DNA of 45,730 nt from Bacteroidales bacterium (lineage in GTDB: Bacteria > Bacteroidota > Bacteroidia > Bacteroidales > UBA932). How positions within the stretch are numbered: the stretch's first letter is position 1; each line of letters begins with the position of its first letter. This document shows positions 1 through 14,602 of the stretch, piece by piece. The notes beneath the pieces are model-generated. The model searched no databases. It was not told the origin of the DNA and worked only from the letters and a program-made list of their open reading frames with translations. The stretch covers positions 1 through 45,730 of the forward strand of contig JAKSKO010000008.1 in assembly GCA_024401715.1 (NCBI GenBank), read 5' to 3'. The translations under genes and the position numbers were made by a program.

Positions 1-191
1 AGTACAAATATAAGACGGGCAAGGAAGAAGGCCTGAAAGAAGGACGCGCAGAAGGACGCGCAGAAGGCCTGGAAGAAGGCGAAGCCAAGAAGCAGCTGGA
101 GATTGCCAGGGCGATGATGGCTGAGGGTATTCCTGTTGCCGTTATCGTCAAGTGCACTGGTCTGACGGAAGAACAGATTAAGGAGCTATAA
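1..191 (+). CDS. Rpn family nuclease/putative transposase, C-terminal fragment
   Basis: Only the last 62 codons are in the window; the frame opens at base 3 and stops with TAA at 189-191. The visible part starts with a charged run of repeating Gly-Arg-Ala-Glu and Gly-Leu-Glu-Glu units. It continues into a short helical tail (KKQLEIARAMMAEGIPVAVI) and ends with TGLTEEQIKEL. This layout is typical of the C-terminus of Rpn recombination-promoting nucleases (PD-(D/E)XK family putative transposases), where a Glu/Gly-rich linker joins the nuclease core to a small helical tail. The catalytic core lies outside the window, so activity cannot be judged. A 12-base unit, GAAGGACGCGCA, occurs twice in tandem and encodes the linker. 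The gene converges on the fimbrial operon. Confidence 0.7.
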   Translation, partial: YKYKTGKEEGLKEGRAEGRAEGLEEGEAKKQLEIARAMMAEGIPVAVIVKCTGLTEEQIKEL

Positions 192-231
192 AGGCGCCCC
201 AGTAAGCAGATTCACAAGTTTGCAGATAATC

Positions 232-279
232 AAGAATTACTCCCGCCATGCCGATGAAAAGCATGGCGGGAGTATTCTT
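232..279. terminator. Hairpin terminator after the Rpn gene
   Basis: A perfect 14-bp stem (238-251 with 261-274) encloses a 9-base loop. With one bulge it can be extended by AT pairs to about 232-279. A short T-rich stretch (TTCTTT) follows on the + strand, so it most likely ends the Rpn transcript. The - strand side has few Ts, so termination of the fimbrial operon here is less certain. Confidence 0.7.
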
Positions 280-304
280 TGTGCAGCAAGTAAGAGGTAA
301 TACA

Positions 305-360
305 CGCTACTAGCAAGTCAGTAACCGATACTAGCCATCACTGGCATGGTACTAGTAGCG
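305..360. repeat. Inverted repeat, 9-bp arms, between Rpn and adhesin genes
   Basis: CGCTACTAG at 305-313 is the exact reverse complement of 352-360. The 38-base interior holds another ACTAG (330-334) and a weaker inner hairpin. The structure lies directly downstream of the adhesin stop codon on the - strand, so an RNA 3'-end structure is the simplest reading. There is no T-run to make it a classical terminator. The rest of 192-416 shows no gene. Confidence 0.4.
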
Positions 361-416
361 GGGATATTGAATCTGTCAAGTCGTACTTGGTCGGATGCTT
401 GTCATTTCACCCTCCA

Positions 417-3400
417 TTACTTGTTCGCAGCTGTGAACTTGTAACAACTGTCCGGAGATCGATATTTTGTCCATGCACCAAACCTACCAGGGCCCACAGA
501 ACCACCACCATACGGATTACCATAACTTGCATTGTTGTTCCAGCAGATTCTGTAAGTGCCCGTACCATAATTGACGAGTTTCATTAGCATCGGCTTCGTT
601 TCATCACCAGCAGGGCTCGTCGTCATGCTGACAGCAGATCCACTTGTAGGACCGGTGATGTACCTCTTTGTACCAACATTGTACAGATAATAGGTAACGC
701 CCGTCTGAATTTCTGTTTCACATATAGGGGTTGCTGTACCAGACGGACTACGTGTAATTATCCACTTGTAAGCAGTTTCTATATCGTCAACAGCTCTGCT
801 ATCGGCAGGGCCCATTATTCCCACGTTTGTTGTTCCCTGGTCATTTGTGCCTATCGTAGCATAACGTGTAGGATTTTTTGTATGAGATATCAGCCAATAC
901 TTTGTCGGCAATGTATATGTCTTGGTGTAGTTACGTGTTTCACCCTTGTAGGTAACATTCCATACGACGTTAAGCGTTGGATTATTCAAGGATGCTGTAT
1001 TAAACTTGGCTGTATATGCAGTACCACTGTTTGTCACAGTTGCTGCCACGTCGCCTATCTTAACACTGTTGACAACTGCACCACTTCCAATTGTTGCAGT
1101 AACCGTAACTACGCCTCCCGAATTAGTAACACTATCACCGTGAGTGAATGACAATGGCATGTCACCCTTTAGCAGCGCCGGGGTCAGGTAGTAATAGTTA
1201 CCAGCACCGGTACCAGTCCATGGACCAACAAGATCCGCGTTATTTCCTTTCTTATTAAAATAAACAGCATTGTTGACCCTGAGCGTGTATAGTCCACCAG
1301 AAACGCTTGCAAGTGTCACGGTCAAAGCAGTACCACCCACAGTAAAGTAGCTACCAGAAGTGCTAGGATAGCCACTGAGCCATTTCTGTGTACCTACATT
1401 GAACAAATAATAAGTAACACCAGTCTTAAGCTCTGATACATTTACAGGATTGGTTCCGGAAGGACTGGTTGAAATAATCCACTTGTTGATAGCATTAATC
1501 GCATTGACATTTCGGGTATCGTTTAACCCTACGTATGTCTGGTTACTATGTTGATCTACAGTCACATAACGTGTACGTGTATCCCTGTGAGATATCAACC
1601 AGTAGTTTGCCTGCATAGTATATGTCTTGGTAAAGCTCTGTGTTTCACCATAGTAGCTAACATTCCATACAGCTGTAACCGTTGTGCCTGTGATGCTTGT
1701 TGCAGGAAGTGTTGCGGTGAAACTGGTACCTGAACCAGATTTGGTTGCCGCCACATCGTTTATAGTAACGCTGTTGATTGTAGCACCGCTTGTGACTGTT
1801 GCAGTAACCTTTACATTGTTACCATCAAGCACGGCACTTGTACCTAAGGTAACGGCTAATGCCGGTTTGACAGTCACACTGCAGGCAGCCTTGACTCCAC
1901 TACCATCAGCTGCAGTTGCAGTGATGGTTGCAGTTCCAGCTGCTTTTGCTGTTACAACTCCATCGCTTACGGTTGCGTAATTAGCATTTGATGTAGTCCA
2001 CGTAACTGCCTTGTTCGAAGCATTATCCGGCTTAACCGTCGCAGTAAGGTTGAGTGTCTTACCCGCCACAATCGTCGCCGTTGTCTGGTTGAGTGTGATG
2101 TCGGTGACTTTAATAGGATTTACGGTCACAGCACAAGTAGCGCTTGCTCCACCGCCATCGGCTGCAGTGGCAGTGATGGTGACACTACCAACGGCTTTTG
2201 CTGTTACCACGCCGGATGCAGTTACGGTTGCAATATCATTATTGGATGAGGACCATGTAACTGTCTTGTCCGATGCATTATCCGGCTTTACAGCGGCTTG
2301 AAGTTCAAGAGTACCACCCACGTAAAGGACTGCGATTGAAGAGTTGAGCGTAATCCTGGTGACTGGCTGCTTAACAGTTATAGAACAGCTGGCAGATAGG
2401 CCGCTGCCATCGGCTGCAGTGGCAGTGATGGTGGCACTACCAACAGCTTTTGCTGTTACCACGCCGGATGCAGTTACGGTTGCAATTTCATTATTGGATG
2501 AAGACCATGTAACTGTCCTGTTAGAGCTATTTTCCGGCAATATGGTAGCAGTAAGGTTGAGCGTACTATTCACGTTAAGCGATGCGCTTGTCTGGCTAAG
2601 CCTGATACTGTTGGCCGGCTGTTTTACGGTTACATCGCAGGTGGCAACAACACCACTGCCGTCAAAAGCTGTTGCAGTGATAGTTGCATTGCCTGGTGCT
2701 TTTGCTATTAAGGTTACTGCCGCATCAACAGCTGCTCTTGTTGCAGGGCTGTCGCTTAAAACTACAATATCAGGATTTGATGATGACCATGTGAGTGTCT
2801 TATCCGTAGCATGGCCCGGCAATACAGCTGCGGTGAGGTTCATAGTATCATTCACGTTAAGCGTTGCGTTTGTATGGCTTAGCGAGATACCTGTAACAGG
2901 CTGCTGTATGACTACAGGAGGCGGGAGTTCAACAGGAGAATTATCCCTGTATACCGGGATGAATTTCCAGTAGGCACCATCCATACCGGCCGGACTCATA
3001 CCGAATTTATACTTGTCATGAGCACGGCTTGGATTGACACAAGATCCATAGGTATTGCATCCATCCCACTTGAAGTATGGCTCAAGTCCACCATTCTTGG
3101 TCCTGTCAAAGCAGAACCTCAGAGGAGTGGCTCCGGTAGGAAGATGGTCTATGATGCCGTTAGACGGATATGGAGAAGGCTTCACAATATATGCTCCGGC
3201 AGACTGGCTATACAGATACATCTCTCTATTAGCATTCACAACAAGCTCAGATGCAAGTATATTATTGGTTGAAGAAGCAGCATCTCCAGACAAAATCCAT
3301 CTGTAAATTAACGGTGCACGTGACTTGTCCATATCTGAGGTGAGAGGATTTGTCCTAGTCTTGCCCTCAGAATCAACATACACATACTGATAGCCCCATG

Positions 3401-4430
3401 AAGCACTGTTAAGTATACTGGTGATAAGATAGAACTTAACAGGCAATTCATAAGTATAACTCTTTTCAATGATCTGCCCGTCCTTGAGGAAACTCCAACG
3501 GGTAGTCAACTGGCCATTCTCCGGGATCAATCTATCTGTGAGATCAAAATGTATTTTGTCTCCGCTGACAGATGGATTCTCTACAGGTCTGCCATCAACT
3601 TGCACAGAAACCAGTTCCGATACACTGGATTCGAATGATGCATCGATAGAGAACGTTGCCAGTGTGCCGTCAGCAGGGTCATAAACGGTTGTACACGTAC
3701 CAGGTCTGAATTTGAATGGCATCTCGCCCCTGAGGACCGCCGGTTTTAGCATATAAGTACTTCCCTGGTCAACATCATTCCATGTACCGAAGTTCTGCAC
3801 ACCGCCGTTCGAATTGGCATTGGTTGCATTATTGAGCCTGATGACATAGTATCCAGGGAACCTGCTGTCTGTGCTAAGTTTTACAGGTATAGCATTGGCG
3901 CCTGTAGTCAGATAATTTCCGCTAGTACCTTGATAACCGCTGACATATGTCTCCGAACCGGCATTGTACAGATAATATGTGACGCCCAGCTTCAATTCGT
4001 CCTCATTTACAGGAGTGCCTGAAGGTGAAGAGGTAAGCACCCACTTGTAAACAGCTTCAATTTGGTCTACATTACGATTATCCGCGTCACCGATAGCTGT
4101 ACGTCCGTTATCAATATTTACATAGGCATAACGATTCTCGAAACCGTTACGAGATATTGTCCAGTAACGCGCAGGAAGCTGGTAGGTACGTTTGTAGGTA
4201 AGCAAACGACCCTCTGCGGAACGAATCTTCCATGTTACGGTTACTGCAGGAGCAGTTACCTCTACGTTATTCACGGTGGACACAATCTCTCCGCTGCCCG
4301 TAAAGGAAGCATCGTCGGAGTTCATTGTAACTTCAACAACGCTGGCGCTCGTGCTCATGCTGGCACTCACGATGTAGTTGGCAGTGCCGTCATTGTTGTA
4401 TGTACATGTGAACTCTCCGGCCACAAAGTT
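417..4430 (-). repeat. Four ~240-residue composite coding repeats in the adhesin
   Basis: Unit anchors, the Tyr of the (F/Y)(Y/W)xIS start, fall at residues 1278, 1523, 2132 and 2367, spaced 245, 609 and 235 residues apart. The 609 gap contains the BIG_2 block. Units 1/2 and 3/4 are joined by a conserved boundary of the form PA(V/L)L(K/R)G(D/E)MP. Unit 2 is the most divergent. The units are clear at protein level, much less so at DNA level. Confidence 0.7.
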
Positions 4431-7400
4431 TACAGGGTTGAGGTATTCGCTTGCACCCACAAAGTTGCCATCCTTGTCCGTATCACGAACGCATCGTACA
4501 GAGTAATTGTGATTATTATACAATCTGCTGGAGTGAATCATGGCAAGTTTGCGTCCCTCACCATCATTACGGGCGCCAAGGTAATGACGTCCGTATTTGA
4601 CACTACCCTCTGTTCTGGTCTCACCCTCATACTGTGAAGGCGAAAGTTCCTCGTTCCTGTACCAATAAGTACAGCTGAGAAGGTGTGGATGATCCACCGT
4701 CGCATCGGTATTTCCCAGATGAAGCTGCTGGTCATTGGTATAGTTTACCATCAATGCCAGCTCCACCTGGTTAGGGATTCGCCATGTGCCGCGTCCGCCG
4801 AACTTAGGATCCTCATAATCCTTGCAGAACCAGTTGTCGTTCATCTTTGAGAACAGAACCTCCTCTGCATTCATATCATTTTCAGATATGTTCTGCCTAC
4901 CCACTGAAGCATTTGTGCTGGCCATCTGGAAATAATCGGCAATGGAGTTGGTACCGTTCTTACCTATGCTGAGGTTGTTGTGTGAACGAAGAGGAGACGA
5001 CGTTGGGTTACGTCTCATTCTGCTGGCGTAATTGATAGTAGTAATAACGTTGTTTACAGGATTGAAGCTGGCCGGCTCTGGCAATACAATGCCATCATAG
5101 CCGCTATCACCGTTTTTCACGCCGAGATAACGGGCACAGCGAATCTCACCGGAACGCTGGGTGTTTAGTGCATCCTGGTTTACAGCGTCGCCCATGGAAT
5201 CGGAACGGCCCGTAGATGCACCCTCCTCGGTAATCACATACCACCAGTCGCTACCCAGGTAATGGAAGGTACCGTTATAATATACCTGTCGGAAATTATC
5301 ATTGATAGGCCATGCCTGCCAATATCTCTGTCCGGCTATGAAATCGTTCTTACTGAAAAGAGGTGTCTGCAACGCACCGGAACCCACCACAAAGGTGACG
5401 TATTGAGAGCTGGAAGGAGCAAACCAGCGCACTTCATCCACTGTGATCTTGCCATCGCGGTTGAGGTCACGGTTACGGTTTAGCGGTATGTCAACCACCT
5501 CATAGTTATCAGGGTCAGTAGCAAAAGTCTTGTATCTGACATCCTGTCTGGTGTATTCGGAATTTCTATGTTTCTGGAGGGAAATGGTCTGGAAGGTAGG
5601 ATACTCATTGCCATCCTCACTACCCATAACGACATTCTGGTTCACATGGTCAGACCATTTATTCGTCCCCTCATTTGTGAGCCAGTATTGGGTTCTCCAC
5701 CAACCGTTATCCTTGTTCACCACAGTTCCGGGACTTCCCGGTTCACCATAACCGGCGCCATGTTTTGTAGACGACAGATTTTTGTAATGATGCTCGTTAA
5801 TCTGTTCCAGGCCTATAGCCGAAGGCAGATCCGGCGATTGAGGTGAATATCCGTCAAGAATATGGTTTCCGAAGAAGGTCTCTATGGATCTCTGTTTTAC
5901 CTGCAGTTTGCACCTTACATGGTGGCTGTCAGAATCCAGACTGTCGTAGAACGTGGTAAGGAACATGAATGTTCTGCCCGCGGTATAGTTGGTGAATTGT
6001 GTCCAAAGCGTATAATCACACTCTGGCTCACCTACGATATTTCCTTCGCTGTCATAGCCCTCATCATGATTGATAAGAGTATTAGGATAGTAATAATAGA
6101 ACTCGTTTATGAAAACGGTAAACACCAGAGGTTCGGAAATGTTCTGGTCCGTGTAACCCAAAGGATTTTCCGCTGTCTTGGGAGTACCATACGCTGACTT
6201 AAGATTGAACAGGTCATACAGGGCTACCGTATGATTATCGTCCTGAATCTGCAGCTTTTCATGGTGTACAGGGATAAGAGTGGTATGCAATTTTGTTAAA
6301 TCCGTATCCACAGGAGCATCAAAATCGTATGTCTGGGAATAGCTCACAAGAGATGTTACCGGCTGGTTAGCCTTAAGCTGCGAAGTTGCCGCATCATTAT
6401 ATGCGATACGGATGTGCTGGTAGTCCTCTGAAAGGTAGTTTGGGTATGGATGATATTTAATCGGATTATTCAGATAATCCTGCCAATTATCCGGGTGGTT
6501 GCCGGCCGATGACCAGTTACCGAAAGGAGAGGATATCTGCACCTCCATGTTTGCTATCTCCGCACGGGTAAGCTCTATGTTGAACACGCCGTAATGGGCG
6601 TCAAGATCCACAAATTTGCCATTGTCGTCCAAGTCTATGACGGTACCCTCCACACTGTGGTTGAGTCCTGGGGTGGTGAGGCTCTCCGCCTGAGCTTCCA
6701 CAATGATATCATTTGCTCCGCGTACACGTATGGTGTAGTTGTAACGCGTATTTCTCCTTGTATTGAAATCATTGGATTTCTCTGCAATGGTTTCACCCTC
6801 ACAGAATCCGAAATGAACCAGATACTGGCTATCAACAATTCGTATATAAGACTTCCCGTCCTCGTCAGTATTAGTATATGAGAACTCTGCATTCAACAAG
6901 ATGAACGGTGCATTGTCAGGAGCATTCACAAAGTGATTCCAGTCTCGGCTGCCGTCACCATTTACAAAATGGTCACTATAGAACTGTTCCCTATCCTCGT
7001 CCCAACGCTCTGTAGGTTTCTTGTATTCAAGAGACCTCTCGTTGTATGTGGAAATGGTATTCTTGCTCTGACCACGCTTTTCAAGCATATAAAAGTCCAG
7101 CTCATAGCGCTTCATCACATCATATCCGTCAGCAGCCTTGTCATTATCCTTCTCCTCAAGACTCCATCCGGATACAATCTCTGGAGAGTTGGTAAATTTA
7201 TCGGCATGGTCCACAGGGGATTCAATCACGCTGGAGTTATCAGGCATGTTGAAAATCTGGTAACTTTTGATACGGAATCGGGTACAATTGGCTTCATCAG
7301 GAATCTCATTTATGATATTGAAATGCATCCTGGCATCAGCACGCCTCAAATGTATGTATCCCGGAAGGATTCCATGTCCGTCAACAACAACTTTTTCCGG

Positions 7401-7997
7401 TTCAATACCGTGATCATCATCACCGGGCTTTGCATAGTATCCGGACATTGTCATATAGTTGCGCAGAAGACCGGCGTTCTGTTTGAACTTAAATTGAACA
7501 GCAAGGAAATCCTTATAGTTTTTGGCTGCGTCAAGAGACTCGATAAGATCCTGGCTGTCGAAATCGGTACGGGTGATATTGGCTACTGCCGCAATATAAT
7601 ATGTACCTGTAACTATACCGTCAAGCGAAACATAGCCTGAACTCTTGCTGGTACCGTGATCATATTCACCGAAATAATGTCCTTCCTTTTCAGGTTCCGC
7701 AGGATACAATTCATCATTGCCGAAATAACGCTTTGTATTTATTATCACAGGGTTATCATCGTTCTCACTATTAAGCCTGAATGCAAGAACATAAAGGTCA
7801 TATACCTGGCGTTCGTCCTCATCAGAAAGAAGCGCACGGGTCTGGATCCCCATCTGCTGAGGATCAAAGCCAATCTTGACATTAACGGCCCTGCCATTTC
7901 CCTCGTAGAAAGAAGCAGGCCTTTCAAGATTATCCTTACGCGTACAGGACATCAAAGCCAGAACGGCTGACATTACCAATATGATAATTCTCTTCAT
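417..7997 (-). CDS. Giant modular fimbrial tip/adhesin lipoprotein (DUF4906-like, BIG_2 repeats)
   Basis: This 2526-residue lipoprotein has a signal peptide with a lipobox ending at Cys18. The N-terminal several hundred residues resemble the DUF4906/fimbrillin-like proteins of Bacteroides. A perfect 12-residue EF-hand-type loop lies at 844-855 (D844, N846, D848, E855). A FISUMP-like region follows at about 1065-1175 (WRIPN ... VRCVRD). The C-terminal half has four composite units of about 235-270 residues: two at about 1190-1690 and two at 2045-2526. Each joins a beta-sandwich-like stretch to a segment starting with (F/Y)(Y/W)xIS and carrying GVTYYLYN, which recalls beta-trefoil lectins (my inference). 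Between the two pairs sit four BIG_2 (bacterial Ig-like) domains at about 1701-2044. It is the last gene of the operon, 9 bases after its neighbour. By analogy with the last gene of mfa/fim clusters (large Mfa5-type adhesins) it is probably the tip adhesin. The ligand is unknown. Confidence 0.75.
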   Translation of the reverse strand: MKRIIILVMSAVLALMSCTRKDNLERPASFYEGNGRAVNVKIGFDPQQMGIQTRALLSDEDERQVYDLYVLAFRLNSENDDNPVIINTKRYFGNDELYPAEPEKEGHYFGEYDHGTSKSSGYVSLDGIVTGTYYIAAVANITRTDFDSQDLIESLDAAKNYKDFLAVQFKFKQNAGLLRNYMTMSGYYAKPGDDDHGIEPEKVVVDGHGILPGYIHLRRADARMHFNIINEIPDEANCTRFRIKSYQIFNMPDNSSVIESPVDHADKFTNSPEIVSGWSLEEKDNDKAADGYDVMKRYELDFYMLEKRGQSKNTISTYNERSLEYKKPTERWDEDREQFYSDHFVNGDGSRDWNHFVNAPDNAPFILLNAEFSYTNTDEDGKSYIRIVDSQYLVHFGFCEGETIAEKSNDFNTRRNTRYNYTIRVRGANDIIVEAQAESLTTPGLNHSVEGTVIDLDDNGKFVDLDAHYGVFNIELTRAEIANMEVQISSPFGNWSSAGNHPDNWQDYLNNPIKYHPYPNYLSEDYQHIRIAYNDAATSQLKANQPVTSLVSYSQTYDFDAPVDTDLTKLHTTLIPVHHEKLQIQDDNHTVALYDLFNLKSAYGTPKTAENPLGYTDQNISEPLVFTVFINEFYYYYPNTLINHDEGYDSEGNIVGEPECDYTLWTQFTNYTAGRTFMFLTTFYDSLDSDSHHVRCKLQVKQRSIETFFGNHILDGYSPQSPDLPSAIGLEQINEHHYKNLSSTKHGAGYGEPGSPGTVVNKDNGWWRTQYWLTNEGTNKWSDHVNQNVVMGSEDGNEYPTFQTISLQKHRNSEYTRQDVRYKTFATDPDNYEVVDIPLNRNRDLNRDGKITVDEVRWFAPSSSQYVTFVVGSGALQTPLFSKNDFIAGQRYWQAWPINDNFRQVYYNGTFHYLGSDWWYVITEEGASTGRSDSMGDAVNQDALNTQRSGEIRCARYLGVKNGDSGYDGIVLPEPASFNPVNNVITTINYASRMRRNPTSSPLRSHNNLSIGKNGTNSIADYFQMASTNASVGRQNISENDMNAEEVLFSKMNDNWFCKDYEDPKFGGRGTWRIPNQVELALMVNYTNDQQLHLGNTDATVDHPHLLSCTYWYRNEELSPSQYEGETRTEGSVKYGRHYLGARNDGEGRKLAMIHSSRLYNNHNYSVRCVRDTDKDGNFVGASEYLNPVNFVAGEFTCTYNNDGTANYIVSASMSTSASVVEVTMNSDDASFTGSGEIVSTVNNVEVTAPAVTVTWKIRSAEGRLLTYKRTYQLPARYWTISRNGFENRYAYVNIDNGRTAIGDADNRNVDQIEAVYKWVLTSSPSGTPVNEDELKLGVTYYLYNAGSETYVSGYQGTSGNYLTTGANAIPVKLSTDSRFPGYYVIRLNNATNANSNGGVQNFGTWNDVDQGSTYMLKPAVLRGEMPFKFRPGTCTTVYDPADGTLATFSIDASFESSVSELVSVQVDGRPVENPSVSGDKIHFDLTDRLIPENGQLTTRWSFLKDGQIIEKSYTYELPVKFYLITSILNSASWGYQYVYVDSEGKTRTNPLTSDMDKSRAPLIYRWILSGDAASSTNNILASELVVNANREMYLYSQSAGAYIVKPSPYPSNGIIDHLPTGATPLRFCFDRTKNGGLEPYFKWDGCNTYGSCVNPSRAHDKYKFGMSPAGMDGAYWKFIPVYRDNSPVELPPPVVIQQPVTGISLSHTNATLNVNDTMNLTAAVLPGHATDKTLTWSSSNPDIVVLSDSPATRAAVDAAVTLIAKAPGNATITATAFDGSGVVATCDVTVKQPANSIRLSQTSASLNVNSTLNLTATILPENSSNRTVTWSSSNNEIATVTASGVVTAKAVGSATITATAADGSGLSASCSITVKQPVTRITLNSSIAVLYVGGTLELQAAVKPDNASDKTVTWSSSNNDIATVTASGVVTAKAVGSVTITATAADGGGASATCAVTVNPIKVTDITLNQTTATIVAGKTLNLTATVKPDNASNKAVTWTTSNANYATVSDGVVTAKAAGTATITATAADGSGVKAACSVTVKPALAVTLGTSAVLDGNNVKVTATVTSGATINSVTINDVAATKSGSGTSFTATLPATSITGTTVTAVWNVSYYGETQSFTKTYTMQANYWLISHRDTRTRYVTVDQHSNQTYVGLNDTRNVNAINAINKWIISTSPSGTNPVNVSELKTGVTYYLFNVGTQKWLSGYPSTSGSYFTVGGTALTVTLASVSGGLYTLRVNNAVYFNKKGNNADLVGPWTGTGAGNYYYLTPALLKGDMPLSFTHGDSVTNSGGVVTVTATIGSGAVVNSVKIGDVAATVTNSGTAYTAKFNTASLNNPTLNVVWNVTYKGETRNYTKTYTLPTKYWLISHTKNPTRYATIGTNDQGTTNVGIMGPADSRAVDDIETAYKWIITRSPSGTATPICETEIQTGVTYYLYNVGTKRYITGPTSGSAVSMTTSPAGDETKPMLMKLVNYGTGTYRICWNNNASYGNPYGGGSVGPGRFGAWTKYRSPDSCYKFTAANK
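2154..2520. repeat. Near-identical 115-bp direct repeat within BIG_2 domains
   Basis: Bases 2154-2268 and 2406-2520 align with five mismatches over 115 bases, at an offset of 252 bases (84 codons, one BIG_2 domain). The other BIG_2 domains are far less alike at DNA level. This points to a recent in-frame duplication or gene conversion of the second and third BIG_2 domains. Confidence 0.85.
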
Positions 7998-8006
7998 TGC
8001 AATGAT

Positions 8007-9275
8007 TTAATCAAAAATGATTTCTGTCTCACGGTCATCCCATTCACAAACCTCGTACTTGACCTTGAGAGGATTCAATCCTATGATATTATAAATATAA
8101 TAGTGATTGCGCATTACAGGGAAGCAATCGATATCCTCATCGGTAGGGGCTGCACCCGTGAATGCATAGTCTGCAAACTCCAGACGGAAATCCTTTGAAG
8201 GATCATCCAGAAGTTGCGAGTCTTTCCAACGGAACTCAATCTTCATCCAAGCACGGCCAAGTTCACATTCCGGAAGATAGGTGTAGAATGTCCTGTCTGT
8301 ATGACGGTAGAAAGGATAGCATATCTGCGTCTCTACATCTGATTTGAAATCTCCGGTATTCAGCCAGACATTGGTATAAGCTCCATCCGATTTTTCACCT
8401 GCACGGTCTTTATTCATCATTGAAGGAGTCTCGGCAAGCGAAGATACCTTGCTATATGCCGGTGTCATGTAGCCATTCTCCATAGGGTAGAAAAGTCTTG
8501 CACCACCCTTCACGCTGTTTGGATTATGGTCGGTAACAACAACATACTTCATAAGGTCGTCAGAAATGTTTATCTTGACCTTGGCAACAGAGCGTATCAT
8601 GTGAATGGTACCGGACACCTGAAGTTTGTCGTGATTGTTGGCTCCGCGAACCTCAACAGACATAGTCTTGAAGCCCCACATAGGCACCGCAGCGCGCTCG
8701 AACATATTGAAGTTCTCCATGGTGTAGAAACCCACATGGTTGCCGAACGTGAATTTATCATTGCTGTAGCCGAATTTGAGACTCTCGTACAGCTGCTGCT
8801 CGGTAAAATCAGGGCCTACAGGGAATGATGGCACGGCAAACGGCATGTTGGCAGTATAAATACTTCTGCTGTTGGCCACAACAACTATCCTGTACTGGAT
8901 ATTGTTGCTGATGCCTTCAACCTTCAAATCAGCACAATACAGGTGATAATGAGGATCATAATCCTCTGTGGACACCTTGCTTACAACCATATTCTGATTG
9001 GAGTTGCAAACACTAACCAACTTGCCATTAAGATCGAAGAAGTATACAGAAAGGTCCTCAGCCACAATCTGGTTGTCCATGCCCTCCTGATTCATGGTTG
9101 AACCGTAATCTTCGAAATCAGAAGATTTTGTATATGCCGGAACATTTATGTACAGACGAAGATTGGCGTCGAATAGTATAACCGGCTCCACCTTATTGCA
9201 ACATACGGCTTGCATGACAGCTGCCAAAGCAACCGCCAATTTAATCAAACCGGATATTAAACTGCGCATCCTCAT
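8007..9275 (-). CDS. Minor fimbrillin-like protein
   Basis: This 422-residue protein has an N-terminal hydrophobic segment. A Cys-Cys pair follows (AVCCNK), but it fits the lipobox poorly at the -1 position, so lipidation is uncertain. The N-terminal half contains DLSVYFFDLNGKLV and YRIVVVANSRS, a pattern of fimbrillin-type transthyretin-like domains. The C-terminus, HYYIYNIIGLNPLKVKYEV followed by an acidic tail, matches the last strands of Bacteroidales fimbrillins, where the terminal strand takes part in donor-strand assembly. It lies 7 bases after the Mfa2-like gene and 9 before the giant adhesin. It is therefore probably an accessory subunit linking shaft and tip, comparable in position to Mfa3/Mfa4. 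The start could also be two codons later (ATG at 9269). Confidence 0.6.
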   Translation of the reverse strand: MRMRSLISGLIKLAVALAAVMQAVCCNKVEPVILFDANLRLYINVPAYTKSSDFEDYGSTMNQEGMDNQIVAEDLSVYFFDLNGKLVSVCNSNQNMVVSKVSTEDYDPHYHLYCADLKVEGISNNIQYRIVVVANSRSIYTANMPFAVPSFPVGPDFTEQQLYESLKFGYSNDKFTFGNHVGFYTMENFNMFERAAVPMWGFKTMSVEVRGANNHDKLQVSGTIHMIRSVAKVKINISDDLMKYVVVTDHNPNSVKGGARLFYPMENGYMTPAYSKVSSLAETPSMMNKDRAGEKSDGAYTNVWLNTGDFKSDVETQICYPFYRHTDRTFYTYLPECELGRAWMKIEFRWKDSQLLDDPSKDFRLEFADYAFTGAAPTDEDIDCFPVMRNHYYIYNIIGLNPLKVKYEVCEWDDRETEIIFD

Positions 9276-9282
9276 CTCTCAA

Positions 9283-10437
9283 TTAGAAAACCTGATTTTG
9301 AATTCTCATCACCCAAGGAAGTATATTAACTTTGAGGGACAAGTATGCCCATTCAGTATCACTGTCTTCCAGGAAGAAGTCAAGATGGTAGTCATACTCC
9401 CTGTCCAGATATTCCTGTCTTGAATAGTTACGTACAGAATATGCATCACGGCCGAAAGAGAGATAATATGGAAGATTAAGCCTTACGACCTCTGTTCCTG
9501 TACTTGCGTTTACTATGGAAAGAACTGCATTGTTTCCCTCCGATGCCGATGCATAATACATGAGCCTTGAGAAGCTTATTTCGAAATGGGCGGCACGCTC
9601 TACGATAGGGTCTGTTGCAGGAGCCGATGATGCCTCTTCTTCACTGTCATATGCCACACCATTCTCACTGAGAGCAGTGGTCCAAGATGCATGAGGGGCA
9701 TAGATAAGCCGGCTGTCTGACAAAAGATTATTGTTCCAGGCAAGACTGCCGTTTGAATCGGATACCCTAACGGCAAAATCCGTATCATGGATGTCTGCCC
9801 TGTTCTTAATCTGATGAAGAGTAAGATGAAGATATTTGGTGTCACGGACAAGACTAATGGTGTCACATATGACTATACCACTCTGATCCTCTTCTTTGGG
9901 AACAATTACGCCCTGCGGCTTGATGCTTCTGCCTATCCAAAGGGTATCCAGACCATTTGCAGGCGCGTCCACAGCAAACAGATCAGAGCCTGGAACAGCG
10001 TTGCGGTCCAGTTTCACTGTCAAATCACTTACAGCAGAACCATTTGCAGGGAAAGTGGCACGGAAACGTGCTCCCTGGCCCTGTGCAAGCTTCTCATAAG
10101 GAGACTGCATGGCCATGGCTGCAAAGGTATAACGGCCAGGCTGAAGACCGTCAAACTTCACAGTTGAATTCTTGTCGGCCGCCTCTGCGGGTGAAACAGT
10201 TTTCACAGCGGCCACATTGCCCTTTTCATCTATGGCATAGACATTTGCCCATCCAACATGGTATGGACGCATGTCCGCACGCTGAATGTTGTAATCATAT
10301 TTGAGATACACTTCCACAACATCCTCACAATTGCCCTCGGTCTCAAAGACAGGGTGTTTCTGGCAGGATATAATGGAAACTGCTCCGGCAAGCATAAGAG
10401 CTGCCTTGAATAGCATATTTTCAGCCTTGGTAAACAT
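9283..10437 (-). CDS. FimB/Mfa2-family fimbrial anchor lipoprotein
   Basis: This 384-residue lipoprotein starts at the ATG at 10437; a TTG one codon upstream is less likely. The lipobox is SIISC. After it comes the family signature: a Cys-rich start, VEVYLKYDYNIQRADM, then a strand with VYAIDEKGNV and LQPGRYTFAAMA. This resembles FimB/Mfa2 proteins, which anchor the fimbrial shaft in the outer membrane and limit its length. The gene follows the major fimbrillin after a 65-base gap holding a stem-loop, and has a poly-A leader. The C-terminus (NILPWVMRIQNQVF) is strikingly like that of the major subunit (NIMPWVMRPQDVIL), suggesting a shared terminal strand. The family assignment rests on these patterns, not on a search. 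Confidence 0.7.
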   Translation of the reverse strand: MFTKAENMLFKAALMLAGAVSIISCQKHPVFETEGNCEDVVEVYLKYDYNIQRADMRPYHVGWANVYAIDEKGNVAAVKTVSPAEAADKNSTVKFDGLQPGRYTFAAMAMQSPYEKLAQGQGARFRATFPANGSAVSDLTVKLDRNAVPGSDLFAVDAPANGLDTLWIGRSIKPQGVIVPKEEDQSGIVICDTISLVRDTKYLHLTLHQIKNRADIHDTDFAVRVSDSNGSLAWNNNLLSDSRLIYAPHASWTTALSENGVAYDSEEEASSAPATDPIVERAAHFEISFSRLMYYASASEGNNAVLSIVNASTGTEVVRLNLPYYLSFGRDAYSVRNYSRQEYLDREYDYHLDFFLEDSDTEWAYLSLKVNILPWVMRIQNQVF

Positions 10438-10464
10438 CAATTAATTTTTTTTTATTGGGACCCA

Positions 10465-10502: not shown

Positions 10503-12428
10503 TTAGAGAATCACATCCTGTGGGCGCATTACCCATGGCATGATGTTGATCTGGATAGCGATGTAGTTCTCAACTGTATCATCTGGTTTGCCAGGGAGGC
10601 TAGGAACAACAGATGAACCAATGTTGCGGATACCTGTAACGTTGATGTTATACCAGTTGTTACGTACAATACCGTAACGGCCCAGGTAACGCTCCTCTGG
10701 AGTAGGTTTACCACCAGAGTAAACACCAGTATTATACTCGTTGAGAGTTTCGTTAACCATACCGTCTTTCTGCTCCCAGTTGGTCTCTATGTCACCGAAG
10801 TGTTTGATGAGAGCCTGGTAGAAAGCAACACCTGATTTGTAGTAGTAGAACTTGTAAGATTTAGCGAAGTAAGCGTTGTTCTCAGTTGCGAGGTCAGCGA
10901 AAGCTGTCTTGGCAGCCTCAGCTACAGTACTCTTAACTGTGAAGGTTACAACATGCTGGCCTGGAACGAGGGTGTTACCGTCAGCGATAGCAGTAAGATC
11001 GCCGTCAACTGTCATGTAAGCCTGAGTGAGTTTGATATCAACAAGGGCTTTTACAGTACCTGTAAGGCTGTAAGTCTCCATCCATGTACGGATCTCTTTC
11101 TTGTTGCCGAGAGCAGCGTAGATGTACTCCTGGATTGAGTCCTCACCTGCATTTTCTACATCGTTCTGGTAAAGAACAGTAGCGTTCTCAGTTACAGTGT
11201 AGAAGTCTTTACCCTCATTAAGTTTAGTCTTGATGACCAGACGGGTAGTATTGTTGTCTGTCATGTACTCTACATTGAATGTATTCTCAGGACAGTAGTA
11301 GATAGCGTCTTTCTTACGCTCGATAGCGATGTTATCCTGGTTGGCACGGGTGAAGAGAGTGTACTCTACAGCCTCAGTCTTGTCGTAGTTAGGGTCAATT
11401 GCCCAGTGAGTACGGAATGAAGGACCTGTCAAAGACTCGATACCTTTAGAGTCAACCATACGAGATTTGCCTTCAACAGGAGCTGAAGCTGCTGCAGCAA
11501 GGTTGTAGCTGCCGTAGCTCTTCCAAGTGCTTTTGAAGTTCTTGGAGATGTAGGCAATGGTGTTAACGTTGTCAAGATCCCATGCAGTAACCTCGATAGG
11601 AAGTCTCTCTGATTCTGTAGCACCGGTGTTAGTGATCTTGAGATCATTAGCCCAGGTAACCTGAACCTTTGCAAGAACGCGCTCAACATTGATTGTGGCA
11701 GCAGGGTTCTGCTCGGCAGCGGCACGAGAAGTGTAGAGGTTAGCAAGTACCGGAACGAGAGTTGCAACATTGCCATTCTTTACGTATGTGGCGTTGGTCA
11801 TCATGAATGAAGTCTCAGCGTAGTTACGATTGCCCTCGTCGATAAGGACCTTCTGGAACTCAGCGAAAGGCATACCAGTGAGTTTAACTTTGCCAGTGGT
11901 AGCATTGGTCATAGAACCGTCAGCTGCGCTTGCGCCTTTTGTGAAGTAACCTGAAGCAGTTGCAAAAAGGTCAGTACCCTCAATCTCATAGAAACCGTGG
12001 TCGTTGAGGATGAGGAAAGCATAGACTTCCCCACTGCCAAGAGTAGATTTGGCTATCTCTGCAATAATCTTGCTTGAAGATACTGTCACCTGGTCATAAG
12101 GGTTGGGTGCGAAGGTGTTACGATACTCGCTGAGGTTGTAGGCTGATTTGAGTTCAGCAGCTGCCTCATTTTCACCACCAAAGAGAACGAGGATGATATC
12201 CTCTACGTTAGCTGCGTCGGCAGTACCGTCGTTGTACTGACCATAATTGTTACCGGACTGATCGCCATCAGCCTTAGTGGCTGTAGCAGAAGGAAGGTCG
12301 ATACCCAATGCGAGGTATGCCTTCTCACCTTCCGGCAAAACGAAAGGGTCGTTTTTAGCGACATTTTTGTTACAACCTACCGCCATCATGGCAGCGATTG
12401 CAAGAGAAAGATAAAGAATCTTTTTCAT
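10503..12428 (-). CDS. Mfa1-like major fimbrial subunit
   Basis: This 641-residue lipoprotein precursor has lipobox MAVGC. The N-terminal domain runs from YLALGIDLPSATATKADG to VEDIILVLFGG, and the C-terminal region carries GIVRNNWYNINVTGIRNIG and ends QINIMPWVMRPQDVIL. The motif 'VRNNWY..NVTGI..IG' is characteristic of Mfa1-family major fimbrillins. In that family the precursor is lipidated, carried to the outer membrane, cleaved in the N-terminal domain and polymerized by strand exchange. It is followed by the Mfa2-like anchor, as in the P. gingivalis mfa cluster. A TAACTTTT box at 12445-12452, one base off the -7 consensus, lies in the AT-rich 43-base leader and might give extra internal transcription. 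Confidence 0.8.
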   Translation of the reverse strand: MKKILYLSLAIAAMMAVGCNKNVAKNDPFVLPEGEKAYLALGIDLPSATATKADGDQSGNNYGQYNDGTADAANVEDIILVLFGGENEAAAELKSAYNLSEYRNTFAPNPYDQVTVSSSKIIAEIAKSTLGSGEVYAFLILNDHGFYEIEGTDLFATASGYFTKGASAADGSMTNATTGKVKLTGMPFAEFQKVLIDEGNRNYAETSFMMTNATYVKNGNVATLVPVLANLYTSRAAAEQNPAATINVERVLAKVQVTWANDLKITNTGATESERLPIEVTAWDLDNVNTIAYISKNFKSTWKSYGSYNLAAAASAPVEGKSRMVDSKGIESLTGPSFRTHWAIDPNYDKTEAVEYTLFTRANQDNIAIERKKDAIYYCPENTFNVEYMTDNNTTRLVIKTKLNEGKDFYTVTENATVLYQNDVENAGEDSIQEYIYAALGNKKEIRTWMETYSLTGTVKALVDIKLTQAYMTVDGDLTAIADGNTLVPGQHVVTFTVKSTVAEAAKTAFADLATENNAYFAKSYKFYYYKSGVAFYQALIKHFGDIETNWEQKDGMVNETLNEYNTGVYSGGKPTPEERYLGRYGIVRNNWYNINVTGIRNIGSSVVPSLPGKPDDTVENYIAIQINIMPWVMRPQDVIL

Positions 12429-12471: not shown

Positions 12472-13977
12472 TTATTCTTCAAATAACATTGCCTTGATTT
12501 CAAGGATGTTCTGCACCTGGTCGTAGGCCTCGGCTGCGGCAGGAACTCCTGCTTTTGCCTGCTCAAAGTAAGCGGCAGAGCGGTCATAATTCTTTATGAG
12601 GGCGTTGTATACGCCGCGGGCATATGATGCCTCCGGGCTGTCACCGGCTTTGTCCAGATATCTGCCGGCCTCGCCTACCCTGCCTTCCATCATCGCTACG
12701 TTTGCAGCGTTGAGGTTTGCAACCTGGTCTTTAGGATAGCACTTTACGGCAGCGCGGATAACATCGTGGAAATCGGCAGAGTCCTCCGGATAGCTTAGGG
12801 CCAGCATATAGAACTCGTCCAGGCTTAGTTTGCTTGGATCCTGGGCATATGCCTGGCGGATTTCCTCTATGCTTGTGAAGACGCGCACCTCATAGTTAAT
12901 CTGGTAGTCCACCTTACGAAGTGCAGGATAGCAGTTCTCCTTGAGGTATGCATATTCCTTAGGGTACTGTTTCTTCAGATAGGACTCTTTAGGGTCCGGA
13001 GCAAGGTGAGAGTCAATTATATTCAGGATGCCCTCCTTGTTGCTGATGTCCGATGCCTCCACGTATGCGCGCAGGCCTTCCCAGTTCTCAGGCTCGTAAT
13101 CTGTATCTATCACATCCATGGAAATGTGGCTGAATGTGGAGAGATATTTCTTTATGGAGTTTGTACGGCCTTTTGCAAGGCGTGTGTTGTTTTCGTATGG
13201 AGACTCCGGCGATGCAAAACCCTTGAGGAAGATTGCCTTGATTGTGATGTCGGAATCGTTGCGCACGCTGTCCACTGTTGCAAGAATCTTTGCAAGCTCG
13301 CGAGGGTTGTTGCGGTACTCCGGATAAATCTCTGTCTTGCTTACAGGGAAGTCTACGTAAGACACTGCATGCAGGCTGCGCATCTTTTTAAGGTCTGCCT
13401 TAGGGCGCAGATAAACGAATGCAGGAACGAATGCAGGAACCGCAGGAAGCTGGTATGATGCGTCGGTTCCCTTCCAGTCGTCGTCCAGGACTTTGCTGCA
13501 GCAGCCAAGAAGACACTCGTTAACCATCACGCGTGCGCCGTTCATCCAGGCTGCATACGGGATGGTGATATCGAAGTGATAAGAATCGGGAAGATCCTGC
13601 TTGCGCCATGTAATGTCTTTTTCCGATACCTTTGTCTGTATGCCCAGCTTGTTGCCAATCTGGTTGCGCAGGTGGTAGAAATAGCGGTTACGTCCCATTA
13701 CTGTGAGCTGTGCAAGGTTCAAAGTGTCCTGCGCACCAGCAAGAGCGGGAATCACATTCACTTCCCTGTCCCAGCCAACTTTTACGGCACGGAAATCAAG
13801 GTCCATCTGCACGTTGACGCCTGCAGCGCTGCGCTCTATCTTGGCATTGGTCACAATAACACCATTGTCCATTGTAACCTGGTTTATCGGATTTGTATTG
13901 CTGTCCTGGGCGTTTGCCGCAGTAGCAAGGAACAGGCCTGCAAAAGCGGCTATTACTGTTGTGATCTTAGAATTCAT
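12472..13977 (-). CDS. DUF3868 protein with OmpA-like domain
   Basis: This 501-residue protein starts at the ATG at 13977; a TTG two codons upstream is less likely. It has a cleavable signal peptide (LATAANAQ). The N-terminal part (NAKIERSAAGVNVQMDLDF ... ELTVMGRNRYFYHLRN-like strands) fits DUF3868. The middle has an OmpA-like motif: KGFASPESPYENNTRLAKGR then NSIKKYL. A TPR-like helical C-terminus follows (LNAANVAMMEGRVGEAGRYL). DUF3868 and DUF3575 genes commonly precede Bacteroides fimbrial genes, which fits a role in fimbria assembly or outer-membrane/peptidoglycan anchoring. That role is inferred. It overlaps the end of the DUF3575 gene by 11 bases, implying translational coupling. Confidence 0.75.
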   Translation of the reverse strand: MNSKITTVIAAFAGLFLATAANAQDSNTNPINQVTMDNGVIVTNAKIERSAAGVNVQMDLDFRAVKVGWDREVNVIPALAGAQDTLNLAQLTVMGRNRYFYHLRNQIGNKLGIQTKVSEKDITWRKQDLPDSYHFDITIPYAAWMNGARVMVNECLLGCCSKVLDDDWKGTDASYQLPAVPAFVPAFVYLRPKADLKKMRSLHAVSYVDFPVSKTEIYPEYRNNPRELAKILATVDSVRNDSDITIKAIFLKGFASPESPYENNTRLAKGRTNSIKKYLSTFSHISMDVIDTDYEPENWEGLRAYVEASDISNKEGILNIIDSHLAPDPKESYLKKQYPKEYAYLKENCYPALRKVDYQINYEVRVFTSIEEIRQAYAQDPSKLSLDEFYMLALSYPEDSADFHDVIRAAVKCYPKDQVANLNAANVAMMEGRVGEAGRYLDKAGDSPEASYARGVYNALIKNYDRSAAYFEQAKAGVPAAAEAYDQVQNILEIKAMLFEE

Positions 13978-14602
13978 AAACAAGATTTATAGCTGCTTTA
14001 GTAGGTCCAACATAATGATAAGGGTTGTTCTCGCTTATCTTCTTTCCGCAATCCTTGCACTGGTAGACGTCGAAACGGGTGTAGATATAGCCCAAGCCAA
14101 GTTCCAACTCCATATTCCAGTGCTGTCCAAGAATGAAACTGTAGCCGTATGCAACACCTGCACCAACGCCCCATCCCTGGAAGCGGTGGTCTGTCATAGG
14201 CACAAGGCTGCCGGCACCAAACTGTTTGGTGGCAGCGTTGTATCCCCATGGAAACCAGTCAATATTGTTTCTGATATTGCCAAAATTATACTGGCCGCCA
14301 AGAGCGTGGAAACCAAGGAAATGGCCGTTGAAACGCTCACAGAACCAGTAGCGGGCCTCCGGCTGCACAAGCCAGTGCCTAAGCCTCTTGTCTCCCCAAG
14401 CATTCCAGAAATGAATGTTGCCGGAAAGGTCAAAGGTCCATTTCGGAGCCAGGGCAACCTCGGCACCCAGATTCAGGGTGGCGGTGACGTCGTACAGGAG
14501 ATTGGTCTTGATGGCAAAATTCTGTGCCGATGCGTTCACATGGAAGGCAGTGCACAAAACCACCGGGAGAAGCAAGCTCCTAATAACAGATTTAAAAGAC
14601 AT
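13967..14602 (-). CDS. DUF3575 outer-membrane protein
   Basis: This 211-residue protein has a signal peptide (HVNASAQ). The mature part begins NFAIKTNLLYDVTATLNLG, the hallmark start of DUF3575 proteins. Alternating aromatic strands follow (WTFDLSGNIHFWNAWGD, PEARYWFCERFNGHFLGFH), and it ends in Phe, consistent with a small outer-membrane beta-barrel. A CxxC pair sits near the C-terminus (YQCKDCGKK), which is unusual in a beta-barrel and may bind metal or form a disulfide. It is first in the fimbrial structural series and coupled to the DUF3868 gene, with the regulator gene 77 bases upstream. Confidence 0.75.
   Translation of the reverse strand: MSFKSVIRSLLLPVVLCTAFHVNASAQNFAIKTNLLYDVTATLNLGAEVALAPKWTFDLSGNIHFWNAWGDKRLRHWLVQPEARYWFCERFNGHFLGFHALGGQYNFGNIRNNIDWFPWGYNAATKQFGAGSLVPMTDHRFQGWGVGAGVAYGYSFILGQHWNMELELGLGYIYTRFDVYQCKDCGKKISENNPYHYVGPTKAAINLVYEF

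Follow-up and report, generated by a model that had tools for sequence, protein, structure and literature searches.

Type V (FimA/Mfa1) pili carry tip pilins such as FimC-E, Mfa3-5 and those of gut Bacteroides, which have a DUF4906-type core. The available part of a 2025 review describes ligand-binding domains at the C-terminus of such tip pilins and also states that some type V pili have lectin domains and that very little is known of the ligands (PMC12632263). In the similarly partial text of a 2018 paper, Mfa1, Mfa3 and Mfa4 are cleaved at Arg and the donor strand is left open (PMC5789003). Mfa5 of Porphyromonas gingivalis, in the accessible part of its report, is a large accessory protein of the tip that combines immunoglobulin (Ig)-like domains with an adhesive domain not of the fimbrillin type (PMC7835359). 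Here we describe a predicted tip protein encoded in a 45,730-nucleotide stretch of Bacteroidales DNA (GenBank contig JAKSKO010000008.1), this whole stretch being called the window and the product of its open reading frame (ORF) 417-7997 the window protein. It would belong to a known kind, the type V tip pilins that bear ligand-binding modules at their C-terminus. The operon layout, the lipobox and a putative TR/A site (the slash marks the cut) are like those of the tip pilins above. Unlike them, the window protein has four Big_2 domains beyond the core motif, flanked on each side by an Ig-trefoil pair. Mfa5 differs in having a von Willebrand factor domain and no trefoil, the likeness being one of architecture. 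Since a three-lobed fold like that of sugar-binding proteins is predicted for the second half of the repeated module, the window protein probably serves a known type of pilus as a multivalent adhesin for glycans.

Composite units of the C-terminal extension

The features of the window protein are as follows, L005 being the locus of the relative Candidatus Cryptobacteroides choladohippi (Ca. C. choladohippi) and G1247 a genome of another family of the order. As the Ca. C. choladohippi genome falls in the same genus as the window, the window's host is probably a Cryptobacteroides too.

417..7997, minus strand: giant type V tip-pilin-like lipoprotein, 2526 amino acids, from the ORF and its translation with an ATG start; final gene in the pilus operon
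4482..7997, minus strand: tip pilin core, residues 1-1172, C-terminal end RCVRD; 48% identity alignment to the L005 tip, G1247 tip homologous
4632..4832, minus strand: stretch resembling Lcl_C, possibly C-type-lectin-like (residues 1056-1122); PF07603 E 5.3e-5 for the fragment and 9.7e-4 for the whole protein
3729..4445, minus strand: unit U1 (type I), residues 1185-1423; Ig-like part 4173-4445, trefoil part 3729-4172, fold via homology to U3
2928..3728, minus strand: unit U2 (type II, diverged), residues 1424-1690; Ig-like part 3441-3728, trefoil part 2928-3440, division from the unit alignment
1866..2897, minus strand: four Big_2 Ig-like domains, residues 1701-2044; PF02368 E 7.8e-58, four stretches
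1167..1865, minus strand: unit U3 (type I), residues 2045-2277; Ig-like part 1611-1865, trefoil part 1167-1610, predicted structure with a predicted local distance difference test score (pLDDT) of 84.5
420..1166, minus strand: unit U4 (type I), C-terminus, residues 2278-2526; Ig-like part 906-1166, trefoil part 420-905, fold via homology to U3

The original prediction had described four copies of a compound unit, arranged as a pair, four Ig-like domains and a second pair, in a 2526-residue lipoprotein closing a fimbrial operon. The lipoprotein and its place were confirmed (minus-strand ORF, lipobox LMSC18 with Cys18, PF15495 and PF08842 neighbours), as was the order of the modules (unit alignments, a unit profile and four PF02368 stretches). 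U1-U4 could be aligned with one another along their whole length. When alignment scores were compared with 200 shuffles for each pair, U1, U3 and U4 gave z values of 34.8-44.5 among themselves, and U2 gave 15.1 with U1, 9.8 with U4 and 4.7 with U3, the U2-U3 score being 65 and the best shuffle 62. The four units are therefore related (z 4.7-44.5), but U2 is strongly diverged, with 17-21% identity to the other three window units. This type II unit showed 62% identity between the window and L005 species. The motif GVTYYLYN, expected in every unit, was found to be exact in U1 and U4 but altered to GVTYYLFN in U3 and NREMYLYS in U2. BLASTP of the protein against itself gave either no unit pairs or only the full-length match, thus the similarity of the units rests on the pairwise scores and on profiles. 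A profile built from the four window units and two relatives found only the four unit places in the window's whole genome, at E 9e-90 to 2e-104, and no fifth place at E up to 0.01.

That the array has grown by duplication can be seen from a 129-nucleotide stretch of 75% identity retained by U3 and U4. DNA repeats of about 252 nucleotides were also observed in the Big_2 block. In a tree of the units, U3 and U4 were sisters (support 75 and 0.82), separate from U1 of both species (71 and 0.92), a support too weak for dating the U3/U4 duplication. The trefoil parts were better conserved between the window and L005 than the Ig parts (63 against 45% identity in U1, 66 against 57% in U2), the pattern to be expected of binding trefoils and of Ig parts that act just as spacers.

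The expectation that the unit would resemble no named domain held, no significant match being present in Pfam, NCBIfam or the PDB sequences. Six units gave no Pfam match at E up to 10, except TF_Otx at E 3 in one, and U3-U4 together gave a single DUF568 row in Pfam (E 0.061; its 14.5 bits fall below the cut-off of 25). The whole protein had no NCBIfam match at E up to 1, and the unit profile matched no PDB sequence.

Predicted trefoil fold and its likely ligand

U3, the unit that was modelled, has a second half predicted as a 12-strand beta-trefoil with ricin-B-type lectins and designed trefoils as its best matches, which agrees with the trefoil-like character proposed earlier for the second part of the unit. 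The VIA-align matches span model residues 86-233 and thus leave out part A, the seven strands of residues 1-85, whose Ig-like label comes solely from those strands and from weaker Foldseek rows. The model suggests for U3 a small beta-sandwich with a beta-trefoil of the ricin-B type behind it; from homology to U3, the same arrangement would apply to U1 and U4. A plain Ig or Big_2 repeat was rejected, the second half of U3 being a predicted trefoil and no Big_2 match falling within the units; no described non-binding domain was matched by sequence.

On this model, glycan binding is the most likely function. We consider it rather probable that the window protein is a tip pilin of a type V (FimA/Mfa1-like) pilus, its C-terminus extended by adhesive modules, and that its trefoils bind glycans. 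The core would be lipidated, exported and cut at QTR54/A, and the cut core would sit at the distal end of the pilus. The tail would project outward from the core as an Ig-trefoil pair, four Big_2 spacers and a second Ig-trefoil pair. The trefoils would bind host mucin, plant or bacterial glycans with the Ig parts as spacers, and four diverged trefoils could give avidity or several specificities.

A bridge to the ricin-type lectins was found within the order. The trefoil profile matched G988, a genome of another family, at E 4.9e-6, and the match sits in a pilus operon as judged by gene order and by eye. The G988 trefoil domain alone scored 29.8 bits with PF14200 (cut-off 25.6), and a profile-profile comparison of the window trefoil with the G988-type trefoil aligned the second and third repeats (E 1e-7, probability 94%). 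In G1247 the trefoil lies inside a 523-residue subunit, ahead of a fimbrillin-like C-terminal end (by eye), and adjoins a core-only tip. The trefoil-bearing subunit was present in 2/9 genomes of the G988/G1247 family. It shares with the window protein a ricin-like trefoil and a type V pilus operon but has one trefoil, inside a subunit that precedes the tip in G1247.

Other trefoil-like sequences were seen in passing. In this other Bacteroidales family, the minor pilus subunits with an inserted ricin-like trefoil lie at L037:2-1408 and L052:2219-3790; of seven stretches retrieved from distant trefoil matches, L037 was read and L038-L043 were left out. The sole PF14200 match found in the window's genome is at L049:1-1935, at the N-terminus of a protein that looks by eye like a GH2-type glycosidase. 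Secreted-looking proteins of other families (L014:1402-2010 and L022) begin with a LESG.(T/D)YYLYN domain like the second trefoil repeat, followed in the L014 protein by BspA-type leucine-rich repeats.

CBM92 of Chitinophaga pinensis is likewise a carbohydrate-binding beta-trefoil from the Bacteroidota (Foldseek probability 1.00, TM-score 0.72 by target length), but by its title it belongs to an enzyme and, as noted, no PDB sequence matched the unit profile.

Several observations weigh against a glycan-binding tip. None of the six units matched PF14200 at E up to 10, hence they are not assigned to that family. Ricin-type domains are defined by three QxW repeats, and this triple is absent from the units, an alignment read by eye showing [KR]W in the first repeat of every unit and nothing further. 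Identity to the ricin-B-type lectins among the structural matches of U3 (PF14200; Polyporus squamosus lectin, MOA, SSA) was 8-15%. The full-length G988 and G1247 subunits scored 19.2 and 22.7 bits, below the PF14200 cut-off. Mean pLDDT across the five U3 models ran from 84.5 down to 57.6, and a pseudo-threefold sequence test was mostly negative (z 2.2 for repeats 1-2, -0.8 for 1-3 and -0.6 for 2-3). The trefoil model covers U3, U2 being placed by alignment, and the tip location is likewise deduced from sequence comparison. Finally, the top Foldseek row was a ryanodine receptor, and FGF and the protease inhibitor cocaprin were also among the matches; the trefoils of these three are not known to have a sugar role and serve protein contacts.

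The last point allows a different ligand, namely that the same tip pilin with the same trefoil fold binds a protein or peptide, such as a host matrix protein or the adhesin of a partner bacterium. Salivary and host matrix proteins are among the reported targets of the FimA pili of P. gingivalis, according to the available part of one paper (PMC7616799). However, 25/50 of the VIA-align rows were lectins or haemagglutinins by title and the bridge domain in G988 is ricin-lectin-like, and we regard a protein ligand as rather unlikely.

Tip core, pilus operon and C-terminal cassettes

The core is homologous to other tip proteins, namely those of L005, G1247 and further genomes of the genus. L005 came from a scan of named genomes in which a pattern matched 19 stretches, one of which was confirmed. 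It has a matching operon whose terminal tip of 1681 amino acids aligns with window-protein residues 2-1686 at 48% identity. The L005 tip stops after U2, therefore the window protein is longer by 840 residues (the four Big_2 domains, U3 and U4). The candidate protease site QTR54/A has TK/A at the equivalent place in L005 and is a putative cleavage site, proposed by analogy with pilins that have an Arg/Lys protease site between their first two strands. The G1247 tip, of 1025 amino acids, matches window-protein residues 1-470 (23% identity, E 2.5e-18) and 624-878 (26%). Its FimA and DUF4906 matches are weak and the link of the window protein to DUF4906, which passes through this tip, is weak as well (E 0.0045, below the cut-off).

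The G1247 tip terminates three residues past an R-S-V-R-D motif. Once the alignment is trimmed to the core, the motif coincides with window-protein residues 1168-1172, while in the untrimmed alignment, with the extension kept, the last G1247 residues are off RCVRD in the printed part. The motif, the trimmed alignment and the many tips terminating there suggest that the core ends are equivalent. A profile of the three cores (window, L005 and G1247) found tips in 29/101 genomes of the genus, the window's own included, for which 95% completeness had been requested. It reached further than a single-sequence search with residues 440-1184, which found 2/150 genus genomes at E 1e-10.

Both PF07603 matches of the Lcl_C-like stretch fall short of Pfam's cut-off, and the L005 counterpart had no match at E up to 1. 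An EF-hand-like loop, DLNRDGKITVDE, is present in the core (window 5433-5468) and L005 and G1247 have similar loops, the Pfam EF-hand matches being weak. Downstream of the Ca. C. choladohippi pilus operon, at L005:13685-16036, is a 783-residue protein with a DVSGSM motif that looks von Willebrand-like by eye.

The tip gene is the last in a run of six minus-strand genes, of which the DUF3575 gene is the first. The other features of the operon are listed below.

8007..9275, minus strand: minor pilus subunit; weak Mfa2/FimA matches, E 0.023 and 0.075
9283..10440, minus strand: Mfa2-type anchor pilin; PF08842 E 2.6e-34
10503..12428, minus strand: shaft pilin (fimbrillin); PF15495 Fimbrillin_C E 3.1e-25
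12472..13983, minus strand: DUF3868/OmpA-like operon protein; PF12984 E 6.9e-7, OmpA E 0.0045, below the cut-off
13967..14602, minus strand: DUF3575 outer-membrane operon protein; PF12099 E 1.5e-70
238..274, minus strand: terminator-like hairpin of 15 pairs just downstream of the tip gene, from a consensus scan

The gaps between the last four genes (shaft, anchor, minor subunit, tip) are 62, 7 and 9 bases. The L005 counterpart of the minor subunit has a P_gingi_FimA match at E 9.4e-4, slightly short of the family cut-off. The terminator scan over window positions 1-600 gave three sites where 0.5 were expected. Fimbrillin shaft and Mfa2-type anchor genes thus accompany the tip gene, the gene order in L005 is identical and, to judge from domain matches and gene order, the six-gene layout is that of a type V (FimA/Mfa1) pilus operon.

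The lipobox, together with a TR54/A cleavage that is putative, would also suit a long surface adhesin that remains lipid-anchored to the outer membrane outside the pilus. The large accessory protein Mfa5 is without reported N-terminal trimming in the available part of the 2018 paper (PMC5789003). Mfa5 itself, however, is located at pilus tips according to the portion of the report available (PMC7835359), the core is homologous to tips placed after other type V pilus genes, and its TR/A site resembles pilin cleavage sites. A location outside the pilus therefore seems very improbable.

The tip pilins of the genus differ in what follows the core motif. Among 24 shorter tips read, 19 terminate within 10 residues of the motif; the remaining five are incomplete, L070 and L080 continuing into sequence that by eye resembles the second cassette described here, and L075, L081 and L082 being cut. 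Six longer tips, in five genus genomes, extend 415-485 residues beyond the motif, compared with 1354 in the window protein.

L084:603-1862, L085:3609-5024, L086:3726-5045, L087:797-2110, L088:778-2247, L089:3621-4913: unnamed 415-485-residue C-terminal cassette directly after the core motif

The cassette of L084 contains the sequence GDFIEADMDL. When the C-terminal parts of the six tips were compared from residue 1051 on, which includes some core, every pair matched at E 6e-27 or better. None of the six whole tips matched the unit profiles, the best row having E 0.063 and 2.1 bits. There was no significant Pfam match for the second cassette in the six tips and no PDB match for L084, the one tried.

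These ends also bear on whether the extension serves chiefly as a structural stalk or a pilus-pilus aggregation element, in which trefoils pack on each other or on neighbouring pili and have no external ligand. Big_2 domains are typical spacers and four are present, and the 62% identity of the type II unit across the two species is what a structural part might show. Against this, most shorter tips end at the core motif, so the extension is unnecessary for assembly, and six other tips have a cassette lacking detectable similarity at the same site, which suggests a swapped function. A purely structural role is accordingly improbable.

We put forward tentatively, at somewhat less than even confidence, that the tip pilin of the genus may be a socket. 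One core ending in R-C-V-[RK]-D would bear nothing, the unnamed 415-485-residue cassette or the Ig-trefoil array, and specificity would be exchanged by swaps of whole C-terminal cassettes without a diversity-generating retroelement. On that reading, the pilus would end in a multi-specific glycan probe, the window protein, whose four trefoils have diverged and are set around a Big_2 spacer.

A search for retroelement-driven diversification was negative: RVT_1 was found in 0/1 genome (the window's own, 90% complete, so that a reverse transcriptase may lie in the missing tenth), and direct repeats of at least 40 nucleotides in the window are confined to Big_2 and U3/U4.

Distribution and significance

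The genome counts for the units are samples from larger groups. The composite unit was found in 1/249 genomes of the family (the window's own, with the first profile), 2/400 of the genus (the window's own and that of L005) and 3/295 of the order (the window's own and two weak partial matches). The trefoil half alone was found at E up to 0.05 in 14/393 order genomes, the 13 besides the window's own being weak apart from G988. A seven-row trefoil profile found 6/247 genomes of the class at E up to 0.01, the window's own included. Recurrence in other fimbrial tip genes, which the original prediction named as supporting evidence, was thus seen in part: the composite unit occurs in two species, but its distribution is narrow and the trefoil of the other family lies in a different subunit.

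Excluded as evidence were 12 of the 13 order genomes (E 7e-4 to 0.05; the best, G988, alone was kept), the five weak class genomes other than the window's own, and the weak and distant matches in G664 (E 8e-4, a repetitive secreted protein) and G729. A mobile origin was rejected, tblastn giving no match for the U3 trefoil against plasmids or for U3-U4 against phages.

Neither Pfam, NCBIfam nor the literature searched was found to name the combined Ig and trefoil unit, its duplication on either side of the Big_2 spacer, or an exchange of different cassettes at a single boundary within one genus; no trefoil in a type V tip was named in that literature, which was covered in part, by titles and the starts of abstracts. 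The trefoil array is a concrete and expressible candidate for recognition of a glycan ligand by type V pili in a gut genus, and cassette exchange at a fixed boundary makes the ligand specificity of Bacteroidales pili directly testable.
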